Part shown: positions 5,115 through 18,187 of the stretch, piece by piece
How the letters are laid out: each line of letters begins with the position of its first letter
Position numbering within the stretch: the first letter of the stretch is position 1
Assembly: GCA_947501265.1 (NCBI GenBank)
Contig: CANMVY010000016.1
Location: 1 to 40,068 of the forward strand
Origin: Bacteroidota bacterium
GTDB taxonomy: Bacteria; Bacteroidota; Bacteroidia; UBA7662; CANHCV01
DNA: 40,068 nt
Reading direction: 5' to 3'
Notes under the pieces: generated by a model
The model's input: the letters and a program-made list of their open reading frames with translations, nothing else
Databases searched by the model: none
What the model was told of the DNA's origin: nothing
Program-made: the position numbers and the translations under genes

Positions 5115-5130
5115 TCCTGGGTGCGCCACC

Positions 5131-5618
5131 CGGTCCTCGAGTTTTTCTGAAAGAAAAGGTTCGAGGGACCGGTTCCCGAGTTTTCCTCCCGGTCCTCGAG
5201 TTTTTCTGAAAGAAAAGTATCGAGAGGCAGGTTCCCGAGTTTTTCTAACATTGAGAACATTAGGGTTCGTCACCCGGTCCTCGAGTTTTTCTGAAAGAAA
5301 AGTATCGAGAGGCCGGTGTCTAATGCGGGGTCTCGATACATCCCGACGGATGTCGGGACACTCGACCACCGCGTTGATTCTCTGGTTTTTCTGAAAGAAA
5401 AGGTTCGAAATGGCGGTTCCCGAGTTTTTTTCCCGGTCCTCGAGTTTTTCTGAAAGAAAAGGTTCGAGAGGCCGGTTCCCGAGTTTTTCTCCCGGTCCTC
5501 GAGTTTTTCTGAAAGAAAAGTATCGAGAGGCCGGTTCCCGAGTTTTTCTACCATTGAGAACATTAGGGTTCGTCACCCGGTCCTCGAGTTTTTCTGAAAG
5601 AAAAGGTTCGAGAGGCCA
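5131..5618. repeat. seven-copy palindromic repeat array (about 43-bp unit)
   Basis: Seven copies begin near 5131, 5189, 5274, 5376 (degenerate), 5433, 5492 and 5577. Each reads CCGGTCCTCGAG, then the imperfect inverted repeat TTTTTCTGAAAGAAAA, then GG or GTA, then TCGAGAGGCCGG, so a unit folds on itself with CTCGA/TCGAG arms. Linkers are mostly GGTTCCCGAGTTTTT variants. Copies 2-3 and 6-7 share the same longer linker (about 5230-5273 and 5532-5576), showing that a block of about 127 bp was duplicated 303 bp apart. Long frames through the array on both strands are by-products of the repeats. Confidence 0.9.
5332..5370. repeat. hairpin insert between repeat copies 3 and 4
   Basis: TCCCGAC at 5341-5347 and GTCGGGA at 5352-5358 form a perfect 7-bp stem with a four-base loop, flanked by TCTCGATACA and CACTCGACCA. 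It differs from the 43-bp unit and resembles a second class of short dispersed hairpin. Confidence 0.6.
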
Positions 5619-5845
5619 GTGTCTGAAGGGCTCAAAGCCCCCCCCTACAATAACATCATAGGCGATGTTTCTTACCCCTCCACTTTTCTTTTTTGCCTGA
5701 AGGATATAGCAAAATCTCCACACTTAGCATTTGACAGGTTTAATAGGCAGAACTAAGTTAAAGCATTTCTTTTTCAAATTCTTTAAAATTTAATTGCTCT
5801 AAATGCAATTTATTTTTTCACGTATTCATTTAAACACAAAATTAA

Positions 5846-6219: not shown

Positions 6220-9200
6220 ATGCCGAAGATTTTTGACAATATCAATTTACACCTTAAAACAGGGTTATTAGAAACTATTGAACATTCATATCGTGCAGAT
6301 TTCTGCGTAGGCTATTTTAACCTATGGGGTTGGAAATTATTGATGAATCACATTGATCACTTTGAAGGTGATGAAAACTGTTGCCGCTTACTTGTAGGTA
6401 TGCAAAAACCAGAAGAACATTTTTTACGACAGACTTTAAATGAGGCAAAGAAAGGACTATTAGACATTCCAACTGCACTTGCTTTGAAAAAGGAAATTGC
6501 TAAATCATTTGCAAGACAATTGACTTTTGGTATACCTACTAATGAAGATGAGGTTTCATTAAAAAAACTGAAATTGCAGATTATTGAAAAAAAATTGAAG
6601 GTAAAATTATTTCTTGACTATCAACTACATGCTAAATTGTATCTGTGTCACAAGAAAGATAGCGATGCTCCTTTGATTGGATATGTTGGTAGCAGCAACC
6701 TCACAATGGCCGGCCTCTCTCAGCAGGGAGAGTTAAATGTAAATGTCGTGGAACAAGATGCTGCTGACAAACTAAATCTCTGGTTTGAAGAAAGATGGGA
6801 AGATAGATGGTGTGTGGATATTTCAAATGAGCTCGTTAAGATTTTAGATGAAAGTTGGGCTGGAGAAATAACAATACCACCATATTTTATTTATCTTAAA
6901 ATTGCCTATCATCTTTCGCAGGAAGCAAGAACTGGAATTGGCAATTACATCATCCCAAAAATTCTTCAAACTGACTTATTGCCTTTTCAGATGAATGCGG
7001 TAAGTATTGCAGCACGCCATTTAGACAAAAGAGGTGGCGTATTAATTAGTGATGTTGTTGGTTTGGGTAAAACAATGACCGCCAGTGCAGTTGCTAAACT
7101 TTTTGAAGAAACATACTTTACTGAGACTTTGATAATTTGTCCCAAAAATCTTGTTGATATGTGGAATGGGTATATATATACATATCAACTTGGAGCAAAG
7201 GCAGAAAGCATTTCGAAAGTTGACAAAAAATTCCTTGAGGAAACAAAACGGTATAGAGTAGTAATTATTGATGAAAGCCATAATTTGAGAAATAGAGAAG
7301 GGAAACGCTATTCAATAATAAAAGAATATCTCGAAAGAAACGAAAGTAAAGTTATTTTATTAACCGCTACACCTTATAATAAAAGTTATAACGATATTTC
7401 GAATCAATTACGCTTATTTATACCAGAAGATAAGGACATTGGTATTTCTCCTGAGAATTTCATACGTGAGGTAGGCGGCCCCATTGAGTTCATTGCAAAT
7501 TATCAATACTCACCAAATACCTTACTAGCTTTTGAAAAAAGTTCATTTTCAGAGGATTGGCAAGAACTTCTGAAATTATATATGGTAAGGCGAACAAGAA
7601 CATTTATTAAACAAAATTACGCAACTTATGACACCAAGAAAGAGCAATTTTATTTAACTTTTAATGATGGTAGAATTGAATATTTTCCGGACAGAAAACC
7701 TAAAAAAATTGAATACTCCTTTGACCCTAATGATGCCAACGATATATACGTAAAACTATACGATGAAAGCATAGTAAATATAATAAATAGCCTACACCTA
7801 TCGAGATACGGTTTAGGCAATTATATTGATAAGAAAAAAGAACATTTAGCTACCGCTGATGAGATTAAAATAATAGCTAATCTAAGTCGTGCAGGCAAAA
7901 GACTAATGGGCTTCTGCAGAACCAATCTTTTTAAGAGGCTAGAAAGCTCGGGTTTTTCATTTCTTGTTTCGTTAGCTCGGCACGTATTAAGAAACGAGGT
8001 TTTTATTTACGCTATTGAAAACTCACTACCACTACCTATTGGTCAACAGGAAAAAGCGGAAATGGATGAATTTCTTGAAGAAAACGACAATGGTGATGGC
8101 CCTGAAATGAATTTAATTACTGATCATAAAGAGTATCAAAAATTAGCAAAGAAATATTACGAAAAATGTGTTATTGAAAAAAATAGATTTGACTGGATAT
8201 CAAGCAAGTTGTTTAATAGTACCTTAAATAAGCAACTAAATGCCGACTCAAAGAAAATTTTATCAATTTTAGAAATAGGAAAAAACTGGAATCCGGATAA
8301 TGACAAACAACTAAATTCATTAGAGAAACTTTGTTTGAAAACTCACAAAAATGAAAAGATTTTAATTTTTACTCAATTTGCGGATACAGCAAGTTACTTA
8401 TTTCAAAATTTAAGTGCACGAGGCATAAAGAATCTTGCCTGCGCTACAGGGGATCTTGAAAATCCAACTGATTTGGCTCATAGGTTTAGCCCAAAAAGCA
8501 ATAAAATATCTAACGTAAAAGATGAAATTCGAATTTTAATAAGTACAGATGTTTTAAGTGAAGGCCAAAATTTACAAGATGGACATATCATTGTAAATTA
8601 CGATTTACCTTGGGCTATTATACGTTTAATTCAAAGGGCTGGTCGTGTAGATAGAATTGGTCAAGCATCCGATAAAATATTTTGCTATTCGTTTTTACCC
8701 CAAGATGGGTTAAACAAAATTATTAGGTTAAGGGAAAGATTGACCCAGCGCATTCGTGAAAATTCTGAAGCTGTTGGTTCGGACGAAATTTTCTTTGATG
8801 GTGACCCAGTTAATATTCGTGATTTATACAATGAAAAATCAGGTATACTTGACGATGATGAGGGCGAAGTTGATTTAACTTCACAAGCTTATGAAATATG
8901 GAATCAAGCTATAAAGGCTAATCCCGAATTAAAAAAGAAAATCACAGGACTTTCTGATGTAGTATATTCAACGAAAGAGAAGCACGATGATGGTTTCGAA
9001 AATAACAGTGCGATAACATACCACCGTAATAGTCAAGGTTATGAGGTTTTATCTTGGCTGAATGATAAGGGAGAGCCTATTTCAACCAGCCAATCCAGAA
9101 TTTTGAAAATGGCTGAGTGTTCATTGAATACCCCTGCAGTTGAAAAAATTGAAAATCATCATATTTTAGTCAATAAAGCTGTATCCATTGCGGAAAAAGA

Positions 9201-9537
9201 AGCATCTAAATCAGGCGGGCAACTTGGCAGTAAAACGAGTGCAAGATACCGTGCTTATGGCATACTCCAAAGACATTATGAAAGTATAAAAAACACTTTA
9301 ATTGATGTTGACGCATTAAAGAAAACCATTGATGATATTTATCATTACCCTCTCCGAGAAACTGCAAGAGAAATAATAAATAGGAGATTAAAGTTGAATG
9401 CAACAGATGATGAAATTGCATCACTTTGCATGCAATTAAGAGATGAAGGTCGTATGTGTATTATAGACCAAAAAAATCAAGATGGATTGAGAACCCCTCA
9501 AATACTATGTTCAATGGGAATTAAAAAAGGTAACTGA
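6220..9537 (+). CDS. PLD-nuclease/SNF2-type helicase fusion, candidate defence protein
   Basis: This 1105-residue protein has two recognisable parts. Residues about 1-190 are a phospholipase-D-like domain with one HxK motif (H137-A-K139) followed by GSSNLT at 157-162, the usual arrangement of a PLD-type nuclease half-site. From about 245 there is a SNF2/superfamily 2 ATPase: Walker A as DVVGLGKT (278-285), DESH box at 351-354, the TATPYNKS segment, and motif VI as QRAGRVDRIGQ (805-815). The region between the two RecA-like lobes is long and charged. The C-terminal 200 residues are unassigned. The downstream methyltransferase start overlaps its stop by 1 nt (TGATG), so the two are probably translated together. 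Its role is probably ATP-driven DNA tracking plus cleavage in restriction. Codon usage is AT-rich, unlike the flanking genes, which suggests horizontal acquisition. Confidence 0.9.
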   Translation: MPKIFDNINLHLKTGLLETIEHSYRADFCVGYFNLWGWKLLMNHIDHFEGDENCCRLLVGMQKPEEHFLRQTLNEAKKGLLDIPTALALKKEIAKSFARQLTFGIPTNEDEVSLKKLKLQIIEKKLKVKLFLDYQLHAKLYLCHKKDSDAPLIGYVGSSNLTMAGLSQQGELNVNVVEQDAADKLNLWFEERWEDRWCVDISNELVKILDESWAGEITIPPYFIYLKIAYHLSQEARTGIGNYIIPKILQTDLLPFQMNAVSIAARHLDKRGGVLISDVVGLGKTMTASAVAKLFEETYFTETLIICPKNLVDMWNGYIYTYQLGAKAESISKVDKKFLEETKRYRVVIIDESHNLRNREGKRYSIIKEYLERNESKVILLTATPYNKSYNDISNQLRLFIPEDKDIGISPENFIREVGGPIEFIANYQYSPNTLLAFEKSSFSEDWQELLKLYMVRRTRTFIKQNYATYDTKKEQFYLTFNDGRIEYFPDRKPKKIEYSFDPNDANDIYVKLYDESIVNIINSLHLSRYGLGNYIDKKKEHLATADEIKIIANLSRAGKRLMGFCRTNLFKRLESSGFSFLVSLARHVLRNEVFIYAIENSLPLPIGQQEKAEMDEFLEENDNGDGPEMNLITDHKEYQKLAKKYYEKCVIEKNRFDWISSKLFNSTLNKQLNADSKKILSILEIGKNWNPDNDKQLNSLEKLCLKTHKNEKILIFTQFADTASYLFQNLSARGIKNLACATGDLENPTDLAHRFSPKSNKISNVKDEIRILISTDVLSEGQNLQDGHIIVNYDLPWAIIRLIQRAGRVDRIGQASDKIFCYSFLPQDGLNKIIRLRERLTQRIRENSEAVGSDEIFFDGDPVNIRDLYNEKSGILDDDEGEVDLTSQAYEIWNQAIKANPELKKKITGLSDVVYSTKEKHDDGFENNSAITYHRNSQGYEVLSWLNDKGEPISTSQSRILKMAECSLNTPAVEKIENHHILVNKAVSIAEKEASKSGGQLGSKTSARYRAYGILQRHYESIKNTLIDVDALKKTIDDIYHYPLRETAREIINRRLKLNATDDEIASLCMQLRDEGRMCIIDQKNQDGLRTPQILCSMGIKKGN

Positions 9538-12500
9538 TGAGTTCACTTAATAAAAAACAATTCAAGCAGTTTATTGAAAACTTTGATTTTACAGTTTTAT
9601 TTAATCATTTAGGCTGGTCTTATCTTGATGAAAAAACGCCGGTAAAACTTAAGGAAGAGACTTTTTTGTTTCATTCAGTAGCCGAAAAAGGTGGTTTCAG
9701 AGTTTTGGTTTTTTTGCCTGCTCAAAATCAAACGTTACCCAGTTACTCTGTTCGTTTGCAACTTGACAAAAAAATCGGAAAATTATTTCGTGAGCATTTA
9801 ATCATCTTTTGCGATAAAGATAATTCAACACAGATTTGGCAATTGAACGTAAAACAAATAGGTAAGCCTTCCTATTTGAGTGAAACCAGGTGGCATAAAG
9901 GACAAGAGCCAGAATTACTCTATCAAAAAACTTCTAGCTTGTTTTTTACACTTGATCAAGAAGAAAATATTACCATTGCCGATGTAGTGGATGCTGTAAA
10001 TGAAAATTTTAGTAAGAACGTTGAACAAGTAACCAAAAAGTTCTATGAAAATTTTCGAAAACAACACAAATTATTTTTAGATTTTATAAAAGGCATTTCT
10101 ACAACTACAGACCGAGAATGGTATGCTTCATTGATGCTGAACCGCTTGATGTTTTGCTATTTCATTCAGAAAAAGGGCTTTTTAGACAATAACAAAAACT
10201 ACCTGCGTGATAAACTAAATGCGTGCAAAGCAAAAAAAGGAAAAGTGAAATTCTATTCCTTTTATCGTGATTTTCTGTTGGTGCTGTTTCACAAAGGACT
10301 GAATGAACCCACACAAAGCCAAGTCACCAAAATTGAAATTGGCAAAATTCCTTATCTGAATGGTGGTTTATTTGACGAACACGAATTGGAAAAAACCATT
10401 TCGGGAATTGATATTGACGACAAAGCATTTGAAGGCCTTTTTGATTTCTTCGATCAATACGAATGGCACTTAGACACCCGACATACTGCCAGCGGAAAAG
10501 ACATTAACCCCGATGTGATTGGTTACATTTTTGAAAAGTATATCAACGACCGGGCTAATATGGGTGCTTACTACACCAAAGAAGATATTACCGACTACAT
10601 CAGTAAAAATTGCATCCTGCCCTATTTGTTTGACGAAACCAAACGCCACTATCCCAAAGCATTTAATGCAGATGCCGAATTGTGGCAAATGGTTAAACAA
10701 AGTGGAGACCTATACATTTACGATGCAATGAAAAAAGGCGTTAGCGAACCTTTACCCAAAGAAATTGAGCAAGGCATTAAAGATGTAAGCAAACGCACTG
10801 AATGGAACAAACCTGCAACCATAAGTTACGCTTTACCAACCGAAATTTGGCGTGAAGTTGTTGACCGCAGAAATCGCTACATAGAAGTAAAAACCAAAAT
10901 TGATATAGGTGAAATAAATACTATAAACGATTTTATTACTTACAACCTGAATATACGCCAGTTTGCACAAGACACGGTAGAAAACACCAACGACCCCGAA
11001 CTGCTCAAACACTTTTACAAAGCACTGAACAGCGTTACCATTATTGACCCTACTTGCGGTTCGGGAGCTTTTTTGTTTGCAGCAATGAATATATTAGAAC
11101 CACTGTATGAAAGCTGCATACAGCGAATGGAAAACTTTGTAGCCGAAGCAGCGAAAGGGAAATACAAGTTTTTTGAAGAAACACTGGCACAGGTAAAAAG
11201 CCCCGAACATCCCAACCTACAATACTTCATCTACAAAAGCATAATTCTACGCAATTTGTATGGTGTGGACATAATGAAAGAAGCGGTAGAAATTGCCAAA
11301 CTTCGTTTGTTCTTAAAATTGGTTGCCACAGTAGAAGCCGATTATCGAAAACCAAATTTAGGATTAGAGCCTTTGCCTGATATAGATTTTAATATCCGTG
11401 CCGGAAACACGCTTGTTGGCTTTGCCACAGAAGCTGAATTACAAAAGGGATTGACTTATACTTTAGATGGAGCAATTGCAAAGCCGTTGATTGAAGAAAA
11501 ATGCGAAATAGTTGCTAATGCTTTCAAGCGATACAAAGAAATTCAGTTGACGTATGGTGATGATTTCAAAGAGTTTAAAAAAGCAAAAGCAGAGCTGAAT
11601 AAACGATTAAAAGAACTGAACCACGAACTCAACCAATTGCTGCACAAACAGGCAAGTGGGTTGAAATACGACCAATGGCTAAAATCACACCAACCATTTC
11701 ATTGGTTTGCGGAGTTCTATGAAATAGTGCAAGAAAATGGCGGTTTTGATGTAATTATTGGAAATCCACCTTATGTAGTTTACACAGATGAAAAATCATC
11801 CTACAAGCTAACTAATTATAAGACCATAAAATGCGGGAACTTATTTGCATTTTGTACTGAAAAATCCTTTCAACTTGGCAATCAACATTCTTACATTGGC
11901 TTAATTATACCGTTAAGTGGTACATCTGTAAAGTCGTTTTCAACTTTACAGGACATTATATTTAAAAAATCTTCAACTTGGTGCTCATATTTCTCTGGTG
12001 ATAGAAATCCTTCTGAATTATTCAATGGAGTCAAAATTCGAGCGTTGATTTTTATTGCAAATAATTCTTCAAGGCTCAATTATAGTTGCTATACTTCAAA
12101 ATATCTTAAATGGTACTCGGTTGAGAGGGAATATTTATTTAGTACACTTAAATATATCAATCACCTTCCCACTTCAGTGAATCTCCAAAAAATTCATTCA
12201 CATTTAGAAATATCAATTCTTAAAAAAATAAATACAAAAAATTTAACGGGAATCAACAGAAATCAGATAACAACATCAATATATTATTATGCTGCACCAA
12301 TAAGCTGGAGTAAATCACTAAAGAATATTGATGCACTACGTGATAAAAATCTGAATATATCAGATGCATACAAAAGTATCTCAATCAATGAAAATAGTGC
12401 AGACCTATTATTTTGTTTATTAAATTCAAATTTGTTCTTTTGGTATTGGATCACAAATTCTGATTGTTACAATCTAACAAAAGGCTTTATTGATAACTTT

Positions 12501-12785
12501 TGCTTACCCAATGAGGATAATGCAATGCATGATTTCAAAAGCTTGGCAGAACATCTTCACGTTCATTTATTGAAGAATTCACAAGTAGTAACATATGAAT
12601 ATAAAAATAAAGGCCAAGTTACTTTTGCTCAATTCTTTCCCCAAAAGTCCAAACCAGTCATAGATGAAATAGACACTTTATTGGGTAAGCAATATGGTTT
12701 TACTGAAGAAGAGTTGGATTTTATTATCAATTATGATATTAAATACAGAATGGGGAAAGAGTTAGAAGGAGAATACGAAGAATAA
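9537..12785 (+). CDS. Eco57I-type N6-adenine DNA methyltransferase, candidate defence protein
   Basis: This 1082-residue protein has a class I adenine methyltransferase core: the SAM-binding motif I as D504-PTCGSG-510, then GVDIMKEAVEIAKLRL, and the catalytic NPPY at 743-746 within FDVIIGNPPY. An alpha-helical segment before motif I contains the family sequence MGAYYTKEDITDYI. The N-terminal ~170 residues resemble the uncharacterised leading domain of large Eco57I-like proteins (HSVAEKGGFRVLVFLPAQ, REHLIIFCDKDNSTQIWQ); I cannot confirm a PD-(D/E)XK nuclease site there. The C-terminal ~300 residues, less conserved and very AT-rich, are likely the target-recognition part. Start overlaps the helicase stop by 1 nt. 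It probably marks host DNA so that the PLD/helicase partner spares it. A stand-alone type IIG enzyme is an alternative. Confidence 0.9.
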   Translation: MSSLNKKQFKQFIENFDFTVLFNHLGWSYLDEKTPVKLKEETFLFHSVAEKGGFRVLVFLPAQNQTLPSYSVRLQLDKKIGKLFREHLIIFCDKDNSTQIWQLNVKQIGKPSYLSETRWHKGQEPELLYQKTSSLFFTLDQEENITIADVVDAVNENFSKNVEQVTKKFYENFRKQHKLFLDFIKGISTTTDREWYASLMLNRLMFCYFIQKKGFLDNNKNYLRDKLNACKAKKGKVKFYSFYRDFLLVLFHKGLNEPTQSQVTKIEIGKIPYLNGGLFDEHELEKTISGIDIDDKAFEGLFDFFDQYEWHLDTRHTASGKDINPDVIGYIFEKYINDRANMGAYYTKEDITDYISKNCILPYLFDETKRHYPKAFNADAELWQMVKQSGDLYIYDAMKKGVSEPLPKEIEQGIKDVSKRTEWNKPATISYALPTEIWREVVDRRNRYIEVKTKIDIGEINTINDFITYNLNIRQFAQDTVENTNDPELLKHFYKALNSVTIIDPTCGSGAFLFAAMNILEPLYESCIQRMENFVAEAAKGKYKFFEETLAQVKSPEHPNLQYFIYKSIILRNLYGVDIMKEAVEIAKLRLFLKLVATVEADYRKPNLGLEPLPDIDFNIRAGNTLVGFATEAELQKGLTYTLDGAIAKPLIEEKCEIVANAFKRYKEIQLTYGDDFKEFKKAKAELNKRLKELNHELNQLLHKQASGLKYDQWLKSHQPFHWFAEFYEIVQENGGFDVIIGNPPYVVYTDEKSSYKLTNYKTIKCGNLFAFCTEKSFQLGNQHSYIGLIIPLSGTSVKSFSTLQDIIFKKSSTWCSYFSGDRNPSELFNGVKIRALIFIANNSSRLNYSCYTSKYLKWYSVEREYLFSTLKYINHLPTSVNLQKIHSHLEISILKKINTKNLTGINRNQITTSIYYYAAPISWSKSLKNIDALRDKNLNISDAYKSISINENSADLLFCLLNSNLFFWYWITNSDCYNLTKGFIDNFCLPNEDNAMHDFKSLAEHLHVHLLKNSQVVTYEYKNKGQVTFAQFFPQKSKPVIDEIDTLLGKQYGFTEEELDFIINYDIKYRMGKELEGEYEE

Positions 12786-12788
12786 ATT

Positions 12789-12890
12789 ATGATTAAAGAA
12801 AGCCTTGGCAATACCGACCTTTTGAAGCTGACTAAAACCGCTTTTTTATGCAGCCGAAGACAAGTGTCTGTTTTGGTAGTTTCAAAATAA
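12789..12890 (+). pseudogene. truncated DprA/SMF-like protein, N-terminal fragment
   Basis: An ATG 3 nt after the methyltransferase stop opens a 33-codon frame beginning MIKESLGNTDLLKLTKTAFL then CSRR. This resembles the start of a DprA-like (Rossmann/SLOG-fold) family found in Bacteroidota, typically near 190 residues, where the hydrophobic TAFLCSR strand begins the nucleotide-binding fold. Here the frame ends in TAA straight after VLVVSK, so the rest of the domain is missing. I see no continuation in other frames before the next small gene, so this looks like a deletion remnant rather than a frameshift. The family assignment rests on a short match from memory. Confidence 0.45.
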
Positions 12891-12914: not shown

Positions 12915-13070
12915 ATGGAAACGAAGAATAAAAAAGTCACAAAAACTTTAGATTCCATTAAAGTTTTGCGTCAAATTCGGGAGAAATTAAGTCTCGAAAT
13001 TATGAACATGAGTTTTGAAGAAGAAAGAGCATATTTAGACAAATTACTCTCTGAAGGAAATAAAAAGTAA
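12915..13070 (+). CDS. small antitoxin-like protein, 51 aa
   Basis: The frame from ATG 12915 to TAA 13068-13070 encodes a highly charged, helical-looking 51-residue protein (METKNKKVTKTLDSIKVLRQ at the N-terminus, MSFEEERAYLDKLL near the end). Its pattern, a basic start, a helix with RxIREKLS, then MSFEEERAYLDK, is like small orphan antitoxin-type proteins common in Bacteroidota, but no DNA-binding domain can be named. No toxin gene follows: the next 200 nt lack a frame and then the thiolase terminator appears. It may be a remnant of a toxin-antitoxin pair or a small accessory protein of the island. Confidence 0.5.
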   Translation: METKNKKVTKTLDSIKVLRQIREKLSLEIMNMSFEEERAYLDKLLSEGNKK

Positions 13071-13218
13071 GTGGCTATTTCCTAACACATCTCAAACACA
13101 AAAAGCACATTTCGTTTCCAGTAAACCGTAATAGCACATTCTATCTCCAACGATTCTACGTTTTTGGACGAAAGTCTTTCCCAATCGGGTAGCCCCACCC
13201 TTCATTCTCCCCTTCCCC

Positions 13219-13251
13219 CAAAAAAAAAAATGGGCTTCAAACGAAGCCCAT
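13219..13251 (-). terminator. intrinsic terminator of the thiolase gene
   Basis: On the minus strand ATGGGCTTC and GAAGCCCAT form a 9-bp stem with a four-base loop, followed by a run of T (12 A on the plus strand). It lies 20 nt after the thiolase stop. Confidence 0.93.
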
Positions 13252-13270
13252 CCCTGAGAAAATTTAAAAA

Positions 13271-14449
13271 TTACATCCGCTCAATGATGATGGCTGACGC
13301 AGCCCCGCCACCGTTGCAGATTGCGGCCATGCCGTACTTACCACCCTTGCGGTGCAACACGTTGTTCAACGTAGAAACGATGCGAGCACCGGAAGCGCCC
13401 AGTGGGTGACCCAAGGAAACCGCACCTCCAAAGACATTCACCTTGGATTCATCCAAACCAAATTCCTTGATAAAGGCCAACGTCACCACCGAAAAAGCTT
13501 CGTTTACCTCAAAGAAATCAATGTCGCTGATCGACAATCCCGCTTTTTCTAATGCTTTTTTCGCTGCCTTTACGGGAGCCGTGGTGAACCACTCGGGTTC
13601 GTGGGCAGCGTCGGCAAACGCAACGATTTTTGCAACCGGCTTCAAGCCGTGTTGAGCCGCAGCTTCTGCACTCATCAACACGCAAGCGGCGGCACCATCG
13701 TTAATGGTCGAAGCGTTCGCTGCGGTAACGGTGCCTTCTTTCGTGAATACCGGTTTCAACCCCGGAATTTTATCGAAGAAAACCTTCTTGTATTCTTCGT
13801 CTTGCGTAACCGCCAAGGCATCGCCTTTTTTCTGGGGAACCATGACCGGTACCACCTCATGGGCCAATTCTCCTGCGTCTGCCGCTGCAGCGGTGCGCTG
13901 GTACGACTGAATCGCAAAACGATCTTGCTCTTCTCTTGAAATTTCATACTTGGAAGCCGTTGAATCGGCACAAACGCCCATGGCACACTGGTTGTAAACG
14001 TCGGTCAAACCGTCCAACACCAAACCATCAACCACCTGACCGTGTCCGTAACCGAATCCGTAACGCGCCTTAGGCAAATAGTAAGGAATTTGGCTCATGT
14101 TCTCCATTCCTCCGGCAACCACAATGTCGTTGGTTCCCGCTTGAATGGTTTGAGCACCCAACATAATGGCCTTCATTCCCGATGCACAAACTTTATTCAC
14201 GGTGGTACAATCAACCGAGTTCGGCATTCCAGCAAAAAGAGACGCCTGACGGGCTGGACTTTGTCCCAAACCGGCCGACACCACGTTGCCCATAAATACC
14301 TCATTCACCTGATCACCAGCAATACCTGCTTTTTCCAAGGCACCTTGAATCGCTGCTGCTCCCAATTTTGTTGCCGAAACGCCAGCGAACTGACCTCCGA
14401 AACTACCCAAAGGCGTACGAACAGCCGATACGATAACCACATCTTTCAT
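13271..14449 (-). CDS. acetyl-CoA acetyltransferase (thiolase)
   Basis: Starting at the ATG at 14449 the protein has 392 residues, the standard thiolase length, and begins MKDVVIVSAVRTPLGSFGG; upstream in-frame ATGs at 14452 and 14467 would add residues the family lacks. The catalytic residues are all in place: nucleophile C88 in NKVCASG, H348 in GHPLGASG, and C378 in CNGGGAAS. It condenses two acetyl-CoA to acetoacetyl-CoA or runs the reverse cleavage; biosynthetic versus degradative direction cannot be read from the sequence. It is transcribed divergently from rpe and ends in its own terminator, so it is probably a single-gene unit. Confidence 0.96.
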   Translation of the reverse strand: MKDVVIVSAVRTPLGSFGGQFAGVSATKLGAAAIQGALEKAGIAGDQVNEVFMGNVVSAGLGQSPARQASLFAGMPNSVDCTTVNKVCASGMKAIMLGAQTIQAGTNDIVVAGGMENMSQIPYYLPKARYGFGYGHGQVVDGLVLDGLTDVYNQCAMGVCADSTASKYEISREEQDRFAIQSYQRTAAAADAGELAHEVVPVMVPQKKGDALAVTQDEEYKKVFFDKIPGLKPVFTKEGTVTAANASTINDGAAACVLMSAEAAAQHGLKPVAKIVAFADAAHEPEWFTTAPVKAAKKALEKAGLSISDIDFFEVNEAFSVVTLAFIKEFGLDESKVNVFGGAVSLGHPLGASGARIVSTLNNVLHRKGGKYGMAAICNGGGAASAIIIERM

Positions 14450-15174: not shown

Positions 15175-17624
15175 TGCGTTCAGCACTCGTTTTATTTTTC
15201 TTTTTCATCGGATTTTTCGGCTTTTCTCAAGTTCAGTTGAGGGGAAAAATCGTTCACGACTCGACCGGACTTCCGTTGGAATCGGCACAAATTTCGGCGG
15301 TGGGCACCAAATTCGGAACGACTTCATCCAGCGATGGCTCCTTTACCCTTGTGCTTCCTTCTGAAAAAGAATATACGGTGGCGTTTTCTTATTTGGGTTT
15401 TAAAACTCAAACGAGAAGAATCGACCCCAATAACATGCCTGCATTTCTTCAAATTCGTTTAAAATCATCGGTTCGCGATTTTTCCGGAGTGAGCATCGAC
15501 GGAAATTCCAATCGGAATTCGGGCATGATTCAAATGGATCCCAAAATTGGGAAATTGAACCCCAATCTCACCGGAATTCGGGATATTTTGGGTGCATTTA
15601 TCCAAACCAACAACGAATTAAGTGCCAGCTACAACGTTCGTGGAGGGAATTACGATGAAAATTTGGTGTACGTGAACGGAGTAGAAATTCAACGTCCGCA
15701 ATTGGCTCGCAGCGGCCAACAAGAGGGAATGAGTTTTGTGAACCCCGATTTGGTTGGCCGCATCAACTTCTCCAACGGCGGATTCGAAGCCAAGTACGGC
15801 GATAAAATGTCGTCGGTGCTCGATATCACCTATCGCCGCCCCGATTCGTTTCGGGTAGGCATATCTGGGGGCTTCATGGGCGGCTCGGCCTATTACGAGA
15901 ATCGATCCAAGAATAAAAAATTCGGCATCATTGCCGGTGCTCGTTACCGAACCCTCACCGGACTGCTTTCCACTTTGGATGTGCAAGGCGATTACAGTCC
16001 GCAGTACGGAGATTTCCAGGCCAACCTCACCTACTCCATCAATAAAAAGTGGGAATTTTCTTCCTTGCATACCCTGGCCGCCAACGTGTACAGCTTGGTT
16101 CCTCAAAGTCGGGAAACGGCCTTTGGAACCATCAAAGAAGCGTTGTTGTTGCGGGTTTATTTTGCGGGACAGGAATACACCAATTACTCCAACTCCCTGC
16201 AAGCCATCAATTTCAACTACCAATCGTTGGATGGAAAAACCCGTTTGAAATTTGGTGCGAATTATTACACCGCTTTGGAGAAAGAAACGTTTGACGTAGA
16301 GGGCGCTTACTTTTTGGACCAGTTGGACAACGATCCGGGGTCGAAGGATTTCGGAAAAGTTCGGTTCAATCGCGGATATGGAGGTTTTCAATCGTACGGT
16401 AGAAACCAATTGGAAATTCAATCGGCGGCCATTCAGCATTCCGGAATGTACCAATCTGCCGGTGGCAAACCGGTGGTGGAATGGGGATTAAAACTGCGGA
16501 ATGATCAATTCAAGGATCAGTTGTACGAGTGGAAACGGGTGGATTCTGCGGGCTTTTCGTTGCCCCAAAAGTCAGATACCGTGGTATATTTGGAAGAGTT
16601 TATTTCGGGCAAAAACAACCTACAAGCCCAACGGGCAGAAACGTATGCGCAAGTGCGCCTCGAAAAAGATTGGTTAGGCAATCAGTTTTCGGCCATCATG
16701 GGCGTTCGGGGGAATTATCATTCCATTACCCAGCAGTTTTTGGTGAGCCCGCGCATCATTCTCTCCCTTCGTCCCGATTGGAAAGACGATTGGTTGTTTC
16801 GCTTATCGGGCGGGCATTATGTACAGCCGCCTTTTTACCGGGAGATGCGTCAACTGGATGGAACCATCAACCTAAACATCAAATCGCAACAAAGCTGGCA
16901 AGTGGTTTTGGCCGGAGATCGCAATTTTGTGGCCTGGAATCGGAATTTCAAATTCGTTACGGAGGTTTGGGCCAAAAGCATCACCGATTTAATTCCGTAC
17001 GAAATCGACAATGTTCGTTTGCGGTATTACGGCACCAACAACGCCAAGGGTTACGCCCAAGGGATTGATTTTCGGGTGAATGGAGAATTTGTTCCCGGTT
17101 TGGAGTCGTGGATGCGGGTGAGTTTGATGAATTCGAAAGAAGACATTTTGGACGATGTGTATTTCGACTCTTCGGGCAAGGCGATTTATCCGGGTTATGT
17201 TCGTCGACCTTCCGATCAGCGGTTGAATTTCAGCATTTTGTTCCAGGATTATTTGCCGAACAACCCCACCTATACGGTTCATTTGAATTTATTTTACGGA
17301 AGTCGTTTGCCGATTGGTCCGCCGGATTATGTTCGTTACAAGGACACGTTTAGCATGCCGGCGTACCGAAGGGTTGACATTGGTTTTTCGAAGCAGTTGA
17401 TTGGCGGAGCGGCGAAAACGGTGAAAAACCAAGGATTTCTGCAAAATTTTGAAGGTTTGTGGCTGAGTTTGGATGTGTTCAATTTGCTGCAGATCCAAAA
17501 CACCGTTTCCTACACTTGGATTCGGGACAGTTTTGAGCGGCAGTTTGCCGTACCGAATTACCTCACCAACCGACAGATCAATGTGAAGTTGACGGGGACG
17601 ATTGGGAAAGGAAAACGGAAATGA
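15174..17624 (+). CDS. TonB-dependent outer-membrane receptor with carboxypeptidase-D-like N-terminal domain
   Basis: This 816-residue protein starts with a signal peptide (MRSALVLFFFFIGFFGFSQ), then a CarboxypepD_reg-like beta-sandwich at about residues 22-100 (RGKIVHDSTGLPLESAQISA), a plug domain at about 120-220 (YNVRGGNYDENLVYVNGVEI, FEAKYGDKMSSVLDITYR) and a beta-barrel to the end. The N-terminal sandwich is typical of Bacteroidota receptors. No SusD partner is adjacent, so it is probably not a classical polysaccharide-utilisation receptor. The ligand is unknown. Its ATG overlaps the rpe stop by one base and its TGA overlaps the next gene's ATG by four (ATGA). Confidence 0.93.
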   Translation: MRSALVLFFFFIGFFGFSQVQLRGKIVHDSTGLPLESAQISAVGTKFGTTSSSDGSFTLVLPSEKEYTVAFSYLGFKTQTRRIDPNNMPAFLQIRLKSSVRDFSGVSIDGNSNRNSGMIQMDPKIGKLNPNLTGIRDILGAFIQTNNELSASYNVRGGNYDENLVYVNGVEIQRPQLARSGQQEGMSFVNPDLVGRINFSNGGFEAKYGDKMSSVLDITYRRPDSFRVGISGGFMGGSAYYENRSKNKKFGIIAGARYRTLTGLLSTLDVQGDYSPQYGDFQANLTYSINKKWEFSSLHTLAANVYSLVPQSRETAFGTIKEALLLRVYFAGQEYTNYSNSLQAINFNYQSLDGKTRLKFGANYYTALEKETFDVEGAYFLDQLDNDPGSKDFGKVRFNRGYGGFQSYGRNQLEIQSAAIQHSGMYQSAGGKPVVEWGLKLRNDQFKDQLYEWKRVDSAGFSLPQKSDTVVYLEEFISGKNNLQAQRAETYAQVRLEKDWLGNQFSAIMGVRGNYHSITQQFLVSPRIILSLRPDWKDDWLFRLSGGHYVQPPFYREMRQLDGTINLNIKSQQSWQVVLAGDRNFVAWNRNFKFVTEVWAKSITDLIPYEIDNVRLRYYGTNNAKGYAQGIDFRVNGEFVPGLESWMRVSLMNSKEDILDDVYFDSSGKAIYPGYVRRPSDQRLNFSILFQDYLPNNPTYTVHLNLFYGSRLPIGPPDYVRYKDTFSMPAYRRVDIGFSKQLIGGAAKTVKNQGFLQNFEGLWLSLDVFNLLQIQNTVSYTWIRDSFERQFAVPNYLTNRQINVKLTGTIGKGKRK

Positions 17625-18187
17625 AACCTTGGGGGCTGATCGTTGCGGGTGGAAAGTCGGAACGATTCGGAAGCCCCAAAATCCTTCACGAAATCGAGGG
17701 CGTTCCGCAGTGGCAACGCTTGTTTGAGGCATTATCGCCCCATTGCGAGCGCGTTGTCCTCAATATTTCGGAGGAGCTACGTCTATTCTTCCCAACCTAT
17801 ACGCCCTTTGAGATTTTGGCAGAAAACGAACATTTGGGCCCTTTGGAAGGATTGTGCAGGGCTTTTGAAACTTACCCAAATAGAGATTGGTTGGTGGTTG
17901 CTTGCGATCATTTTTGGGTGGAAGCCGGTACATTTGAACAATTGAATGCTTTAAAATCGCTTTTTTTTCGTGATGAACAAGGAAACTTGGTACCTTGGCT
18001 TGGAAAAATTACCAAGCAGGATATTGATTTCATCCTTCAGAACAAGAAAGAGGGAGCGCAAAGTTTGAAGCGAATTTTGGAAGTGATGCCTGTTACGACG
18101 GTTTTACCGAGCAAGAAAGAATGGATTTTGGATGCCGATTCTGCTGAAATGTTACATTCTGATCACGTTAAGAACAAGGACCAGTAA
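17621..18187 (+). CDS. MobA-like nucleotidyltransferase
   Basis: This 188-residue protein has the N-terminal nucleotide-binding loop LIVAGGKSERFGSPK (residues 6-20) and the HLGPLEGLCRAF segment typical of MobA-like NTP transferases such as molybdenum-cofactor guanylyltransferase. The metal-binding strand reads LVVACDHFWV, where the family usually has CDxP, so the Pro is replaced. No molybdenum-cofactor or molybdoenzyme genes lie nearby, so guanylylation of molybdopterin is only the default assumption. It is the third member of a run of overlapping genes (4-nt overlap with the receptor). Confidence 0.75.
   Translation: MKPWGLIVAGGKSERFGSPKILHEIEGVPQWQRLFEALSPHCERVVLNISEELRLFFPTYTPFEILAENEHLGPLEGLCRAFETYPNRDWLVVACDHFWVEAGTFEQLNALKSLFFRDEQGNLVPWLGKITKQDIDFILQNKKEGAQSLKRILEVMPVTTVLPSKKEWILDADSAEMLHSDHVKNKDQ

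Follow-up and report, generated by a model that had tools for sequence, protein, structure and literature searches.

Two adjacent genes in a Bacteroidota genome probably encode a restriction-modification system that is split over two large proteins and depends on translocation, in the manner of type ISP and type III systems. Both halves are already present in PADLOC, under unrelated labels. What is new here is that plasmid pSYSX of Synechocystis carries the pair, that the N-terminal domain of the second protein lacks a conserved nuclease motif, and that a third gene is found in most loci.

Results

The gene pair and its surroundings

The window, a stretch of 40,068 nucleotides, encodes both genes on the forward strand, with the ORF calls overlapping by 1 nt. 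The features of the locus are as follows.

6220..9537, + strand: gene 1, PLD nuclease-SNF2 translocase, predicted restriction subunit (1105 aa, ATG start)
6628..6699, + strand: PLD active site HxK...D...GSSN, gene 1 residues 137-160, invariant or nearly so in 25 orthologues
7060..7074, + strand: Walker A of the SNF2 motor, VGLGKT region, gene 1 residues 281-285
9537..12785, + strand: gene 2, N6-adenine methyltransferase-specificity protein (1082 aa, ATG start)
9537..9911, + strand: N-terminal alpha/beta domain, gene 2 residues 1-125, located where MmeI has its nuclease but lacking a conserved (D/E)xK
11046..11066, + strand: methyltransferase motif I DPTCGSG, gene 2 residues 504-510
11763..11774, + strand: methyltransferase motif IV NPPY, gene 2 residues 743-746
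11802..12566, + strand: hypervariable segment, the predicted target-recognition domain by identity contrast, gene 2 residues 756-1010
12789..12887, + strand: remnant of gene 3, first ~32 codons, DprA/SLOG-like, intact in most relatives

In the gene 1 product a PLD domain (Pfam PLDc_2, E 3e-9; RE_NgoFVII PLD, 1e-6) precedes a SNF2 motor (SNF2-rel_dom, 1.5e-14; Helicase_C, 1e-16), while the gene 2 product matches Eco57I (1.5e-26) and MmeI_Mtase (7e-11). The ORFs, the Pfam matches and the intact motifs thus agree with the initial annotation, which had described two large genes, overlapping by 1 nt, that join a PLD-SNF2 protein to an N6-adenine methyltransferase. Across 25 aligned pairs the catalytic residues of gene 1 are near-invariant (H137, K139, S158-N160, E171, GKT 283-285, DE 351-352 and QxxGR), as are the intact DPxCGSG and NPP of gene 2. 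Nearly all of the 19 motif residues examined are kept in every pair, the exceptions being confined to single sequences each (D147 in gene 1; S509, N743 and P744 in gene 2). The fourth position of NPPY is variable, being Y in 20 sequences, W in three, and F and I in one each.

The genes flanking the pair in the window look like housekeeping functions, among them a carboxyl transferase, a thiolase-like protein and riboflavin synthesis. Hence the island is a small insertion rather than a large defence island. Beyond the gene 3 remnant lies a small ORF (12915-13070, + strand; METKNKKVTKTLDSIKVLRQIREKLSLEIMNMSFEEERAYLDKLLSEGNKK) that resembles an antitoxin by eye only. Upstream of the pair, positions 5129-5624 hold three copies of a repeat of up to 193 nt, rich in CCCGGTCCTCGAGTTTTTCTGAAAGAAAAG, two of which share 61% and 96% identity with the reference copy.

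A variable segment evolving independently of the partner protein

The motor protein is conserved along its whole length, with mean pairwise identities among 22 core pairs of 56% in the PLD domain, 57% in the SNF2 part and 46% in the C-terminal part. Over the same pairs, gene 2 is conserved in residues 161-500 (59%), 501-755 (56%) and 1030-1082 (54%), falling to 38% in residues 1-160 and 28% in residues 756-1010. Correlation with gene 1 distances follows another order, with a Mantel r of 0.87 for gene 2 residues 1-160, 0.67 for 161-500, 0.52 for 501-755, and -0.05 for both 756-1010 and the short conserved C-terminus at 1030-1082; the contrast between segments is used here, since Mantel P values overstate significance among related sequences. 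A variable segment that evolves free of the partner, within proteins that are otherwise inherited together, is a signature of sequence-specific restriction-modification, and residues 756-1010 are predicted to be the target-recognition domain. By the same comparison, the N-terminal domain of gene 2, having the strongest correlation with gene 1, is a candidate docking surface for the gene 1 product. The pair therefore combines the general attributes of ATP-dependent restriction-modification: intact methyltransferase motifs, a variable recognition segment, and a linked motor with a nuclease domain, the catalytic residues of which are intact.

The nuclease is better sought in gene 1

The best PADLOC match of gene 2 is PDLC03628, 'REase_MTase_IIG', over its full length (5e-288). 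A PDB search with the single gene 2 sequence gave no match. In models that were moderate for both proteins (mean pLDDT 71 and 66) and built from shallow alignments, gene 2 residues ~161-1060 align with MmeI (Z 12.6, 557 aligned residues, rmsd 7.4), followed by CamA (Z about 11), BrxX (about 10) and LlaBIII (8.0), and gene 1 matches SNF2 ATPases, with the PLD-helicase restriction enzyme SauUSI among its Foldseek matches. The start of BrxX corresponds to gene 2 residue 162, and hence residues 1-160 form an extra domain where the MmeI nuclease sits.

Within residues 1-125 of this domain, however, neither a conserved (D/E)xK nor an acidic pair was found across 25 sequences: position 50 varies between E, G, H and Q, with K51 kept in 21 of the 25, whereas conservation is strong at W27, P68, E86, I90, D93 and W101. 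The gene 2 N-terminal domain is thus probably not an active PD-(D/E)XK nuclease, and the invariant PLD active site of gene 1 appears the better candidate. On these sequence grounds, the neighbouring PLD-SNF2 protein is likely to be the restriction subunit.

Distribution of the pair

The aligned loci with the pair number 25; they represent at least seven phyla and lie on chromosomes, plasmids or viral contigs. Such recurrence, in a neighbourhood survey, upholds the proposal of a compact restriction-type pair that exists without DrmA and DrmB. Full-length orthologues have 43-86% identity across many phyla (Bacteroidota, Ignavibacteria, Firmicutes, Desulfobacterota, Poribacteria, Chloroflexota, Cyanobacteria and Actinomycetota), meaning that the pairing is not due to chance. 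Relatives of gene 1 occur on genome contigs of Bacteroidota, Ignavibacteriales, Firmicutes, Desulfobacteraceae, Poribacteria, Anaerolineae and one cyanobacterium, and in plasmid records from Cyanobacteria, Desulfuromonadales and Actinomycetota. Five uncultivated viral contigs encode a gene 1 homologue, and no full-length homologue was found in phage records. The breadth of phyla, together with the plasmids and viral contigs, suggests the pair is a mobile unit. On one viral contig (L043, 8001-15047), an intact three-gene system is found next to what appear to be phage genes, one of them lysozyme-like.

Wherever the sequence extends far enough, a gene 2 relative lies downstream of gene 1, at times separated from it by a small insert, and gene 1 is missing from none of the intact loci. 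Among the 395 Bacteroidota genomes sampled, 13 have gene 1 at E <= 1e-100. Three of these, G329, G043 and G247, are further removed, their gene 2 relatives sharing only 24-31% identity, and the pair's genes look broken in G043.

Variations on this arrangement were also observed. In L008 (3546-7652) and L011 (9490-13383), gene 1 relatives of the ordinary type adjoin divergent gene 2 relatives (~30% identity) that carry a Schlafen AlbA_2 domain at the C-terminus. L011 also encodes another SNF2 homologue, a more distant one (30% identity), ahead of the pair at 3-2453. In L044, a separate protein of 396 aa (13145-14335), the start of which resembles the gene 2 N-terminal domain (24% identity), adjoins an intact pair.

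A third, DprA/SLOG-like gene

The product of gene 3 is 150-220 aa long and weakly similar to DprA (PF02481) and PsyrA; the gene is found downstream of the pair in L002, L003, L005, L007, L010, L012, L030, L031, L032, L034, L035, L041, L043, L044, L045 and L152. It occurs in 16 of the 395 Bacteroidota genomes, being present in 8 of the 13 with gene 1 (in two of these, G055 and G160, near the end of another contig) against 8 of the 382 others (Fisher P 1e-9, ignoring relatedness). In viral contigs, the 1.14 Mb surrounding other SNF2 genes held no match to gene 3.

In the window only a remnant of ~32 codons is left, beginning four bases past the stop codon of gene 2, and the genome has no other gene 3 match. 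In G015, the gene 3 copy following an N-terminally truncated gene 2 is intact, and starts nearly as the window remnant does (MIKESLGNTDLLKL). The suggestion of a minimal two-gene system therefore held in that the pair recurs, but not in its strict form, as most relatives have the third gene that is truncated here.

The interval between gene 2 and gene 3 looks like a hotspot, holding varied cargo genes that include a YhcG nuclease in L003 and, in L031 (14567-16233), the DarT-DarG toxin-antitoxin pair (DarTG). In L032, gene 2 is followed by a 35-codon fragment of gene 3 (15494-15598), a cargo gene, and then an intact, diverged copy (17267-17695), so cargo genes may arrive accompanied by a gene 3 copy of their own. 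We infer that gene 3 is an accessory of the system that has been lost from the window genome, and its loss could mean that the system in the window is inactive.

A Synechocystis relative and its probable methylation mark

Plasmid pSYSX of Synechocystis PCC 6803 encodes a full-length relative of gene 1 (WP_011153866, 48.7% identity) and, 676 bp downstream, a relative of gene 2 (WP_011153869, 45% identity over its full length). The interval holds two genes, one small and unnamed and the other for a VapC-type toxin, and a DUF2513 gene, rather than gene 3, follows the gene 2 relative. Genes for ubiquitin-like conjugation (ThiF, E2 and multiubiquitin) adjoin this pair (L124, 16291-18545). The PADLOC type IIG model covers residues 1-1100 of the 1100 of WP_011153869 at 2662 bits, and was hence probably built on this protein.

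Two DNA methyltransferases, M.Ssp6803IV and V, are encoded by pSYSX (PMC6604393), of which slr6095 is M.Ssp6803V (PMC6560206), and the motif GA-m6A-GGC in SMRT data from wild-type Synechocystis has been assigned to M.Ssp6803IV (PMC7296061). A gene table that describes itself as incomplete contains, in positions 1-101,900 of the 106,004 bp of pSYSX, only two DNA methyltransferases, one being a type I subunit. Therefore WP_011153869 is probably, by elimination, M.Ssp6803IV. The motif was reportedly assigned to slr6050, as probable, by Hagemann et al. in 2018, who are also reported to have found the gene essential, an outcome consistent with a restriction partner that is active. As GCCTTC, the complement of GAAGGC, has no adenine, the mark in the Synechocystis relative would be on one strand only.

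M.Ssp6803IV, so assigned, is a full-length orthologue of gene 2, downstream of a full-length orthologue of gene 1. However, it is filed as a single-protein type IIG enzyme (PDLC03628), with its helicase neighbour outside that record, and its target segment differs from that of gene 2 in the window. The initial annotation knew of no detailed description of the pair; indeed, no paper joining or describing the two proteins was found in a literature search outside which most subscription journals lay, but a gene 2 relative, identified by elimination, does have a measured m6A motif.

Discussion

Alternative explanations

Gene 2 might instead be a self-sufficient type IIG or IIL enzyme that cuts with its N-terminal domain, leaving gene 1 as a separate accessory defence enzyme. 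The full-length match to the PADLOC type IIG model, the MmeI-like methyltransferase-specificity architecture and the location of residues 1-160 all favour this. Yet a lone nuclease of this type is unlikely, given that neither a (D/E)xK nor an acidic pair is conserved within residues 1-125, that gene 1 is never absent from intact loci, and that gene 1 co-diverges most with the very domain that would do the cutting. A little less probable again is a block resembling BREX, in which self DNA would bear a mark from gene 2, in the manner of BrxX, and the motor of gene 1 would halt the replication of phage without cutting specifically. BrxX/PglX is among the best profile and fold matches of gene 2, and gene 1 scores against the BrxHI and BrxHII models, but no BrxC or PglZ homologue is apparent among the neighbouring ORFs, and such a mechanism would have no need of an invariant PLD active site.

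Least probable by some distance is a reduced or divergent DISARM, with a DrmC-like PLD fused to DrmD; the initial annotation had seen the activities of DrmD, DrmC and DrmMI carried here on two polypeptides. Class 1 DISARM likewise combines a SNF2 helicase, a PLD protein and an m6A methyltransferase as functions, and DrmD models match the helicase part of gene 1 (E 4e-37 in PADLOC, 5e-41 in NCBIfam). However, gene 1 scores just 141 bits against a DrmD cut-off of 610, and is nearer to the PADLOC family C3a139, 'HKD+Snf2' (9e-49, a model with no curated cut-off), its best match there, which spans both PLD and SNF2 at residues 110-853. Gene 2 is nearer to type IIG than to DrmMI. The MZB domain of DrmB (PF09369, MZB/DUF1998) had no match in the window's genome, though control genomes gave matches, and is also absent from 9 of 10 other helicase-bearing genomes. 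Membership of class 1 DISARM is therefore rejected, and a stripped-down DISARM is not supported. Among the ORFs next to the pair, no DrmA-type one is apparent. The profile searches the initial annotation had proposed divide, with gene 2 matching a type IIG model in full and gene 1 falling below the cut-offs of both the DISARM DrmD and the RL helicase models.

Relationship to other ATP-dependent systems

The Gao RL/BREX-related type 2 system comprises DUF499, DUF3780, an N6-methyltransferase and an HKD-SNF2 helicase (PMC12839542). It shares with the pair the methyltransferase and an HKD nuclease N-terminal to a SNF2 helicase, but is rejected as an identity for the locus, as DUF499 is absent from the window's genome; the RL-family helicase model NF042964 scores 123 bits against gene 1, with a cut-off of 1100. 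The type ISP enzymes LlaGI and LlaBIII are single polypeptides with a nuclease of the PD-(D/E)XK family (Mrr-like). The pair resembles these in uniting motor, methyltransferase and recognition in an ATP-dependent system, and gene 2 aligns with LlaBIII as above, but it is not type ISP in the single-chain sense, consisting of two polypeptides from two ORFs with a PLD nuclease on a SNF2 motor. ATP-dependent restriction by a PLD nuclease with a single active site, as is predicted for the pair, is known from CglI/NgoAVII and SauUSI (PMC5737866, PMC7913695). Nevertheless, CglI has its nuclease and ATPase on separate proteins, and a B3 reader, whereas SauUSI cuts modified DNA, has an SRA domain and lacks a methyltransferase.

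Proposed mechanism and implications

In the split restriction-modification system favoured here, gene 2 would be a fused modification-specificity protein, the variable C-terminal part of which would read an asymmetric sequence, while its Eco57I/TaqI-type core would methylate a single adenine, confined to one strand in the Synechocystis relative. Gene 1 would be the restriction subunit, an SNF2 translocase of double-stranded DNA bearing a PLD nuclease that, having one active-site motif, is expected to work as a dimer. Where the DNA is unmodified, both proteins would come together at the site by way of the gene 2 N-terminal domain, and gene 1 would then translocate using ATP until a second complex is met, probably from an opposed site, whereupon the two PLD domains could pair and cut. 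We infer each of these activities, from complex formation and translocation to cleavage, restriction and phage defence, as well as the role of gene 3.

When only a single strand is marked, one of the two daughters lacks the mark at each site after replication. The answer of type III and ISP enzymes is to require two unmodified sites that are opposed. By the same logic, self DNA would be spared in the proposed system because pairs of opposed unmodified sites do not arise at replication. It is the fit of this logic to both a motor that meets a second complex and a single-site PLD dimer, as in CglI and SauUSI, that leads to the proposal of a split system like types ISP and III. More tentatively, and with the chances perhaps just short of even, the pair may represent a distinct and unnamed class of ATP-dependent restriction-modification, consisting of a SNF2-PLD restriction subunit, a fused modification-specificity subunit that methylates one strand, and a nucleotide-sensing DprA/SLOG regulator, with Ssp6803IV, listed as type IIG, being only its modification half.

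If this is right, what has been filed as a self-contained type IIG enzyme is only the modifying partner in a widespread ATP-dependent system, with the restriction half encoded next door, and Synechocystis 6803, a strain that is easily worked with in the laboratory and whose methylome has been published, is a ready test bed. The logic of one-strand modification, as in types III and ISP, would thereby extend to a SNF2-PLD motor, and an orphan family of DprA/SLOG-like genes would gain a role.
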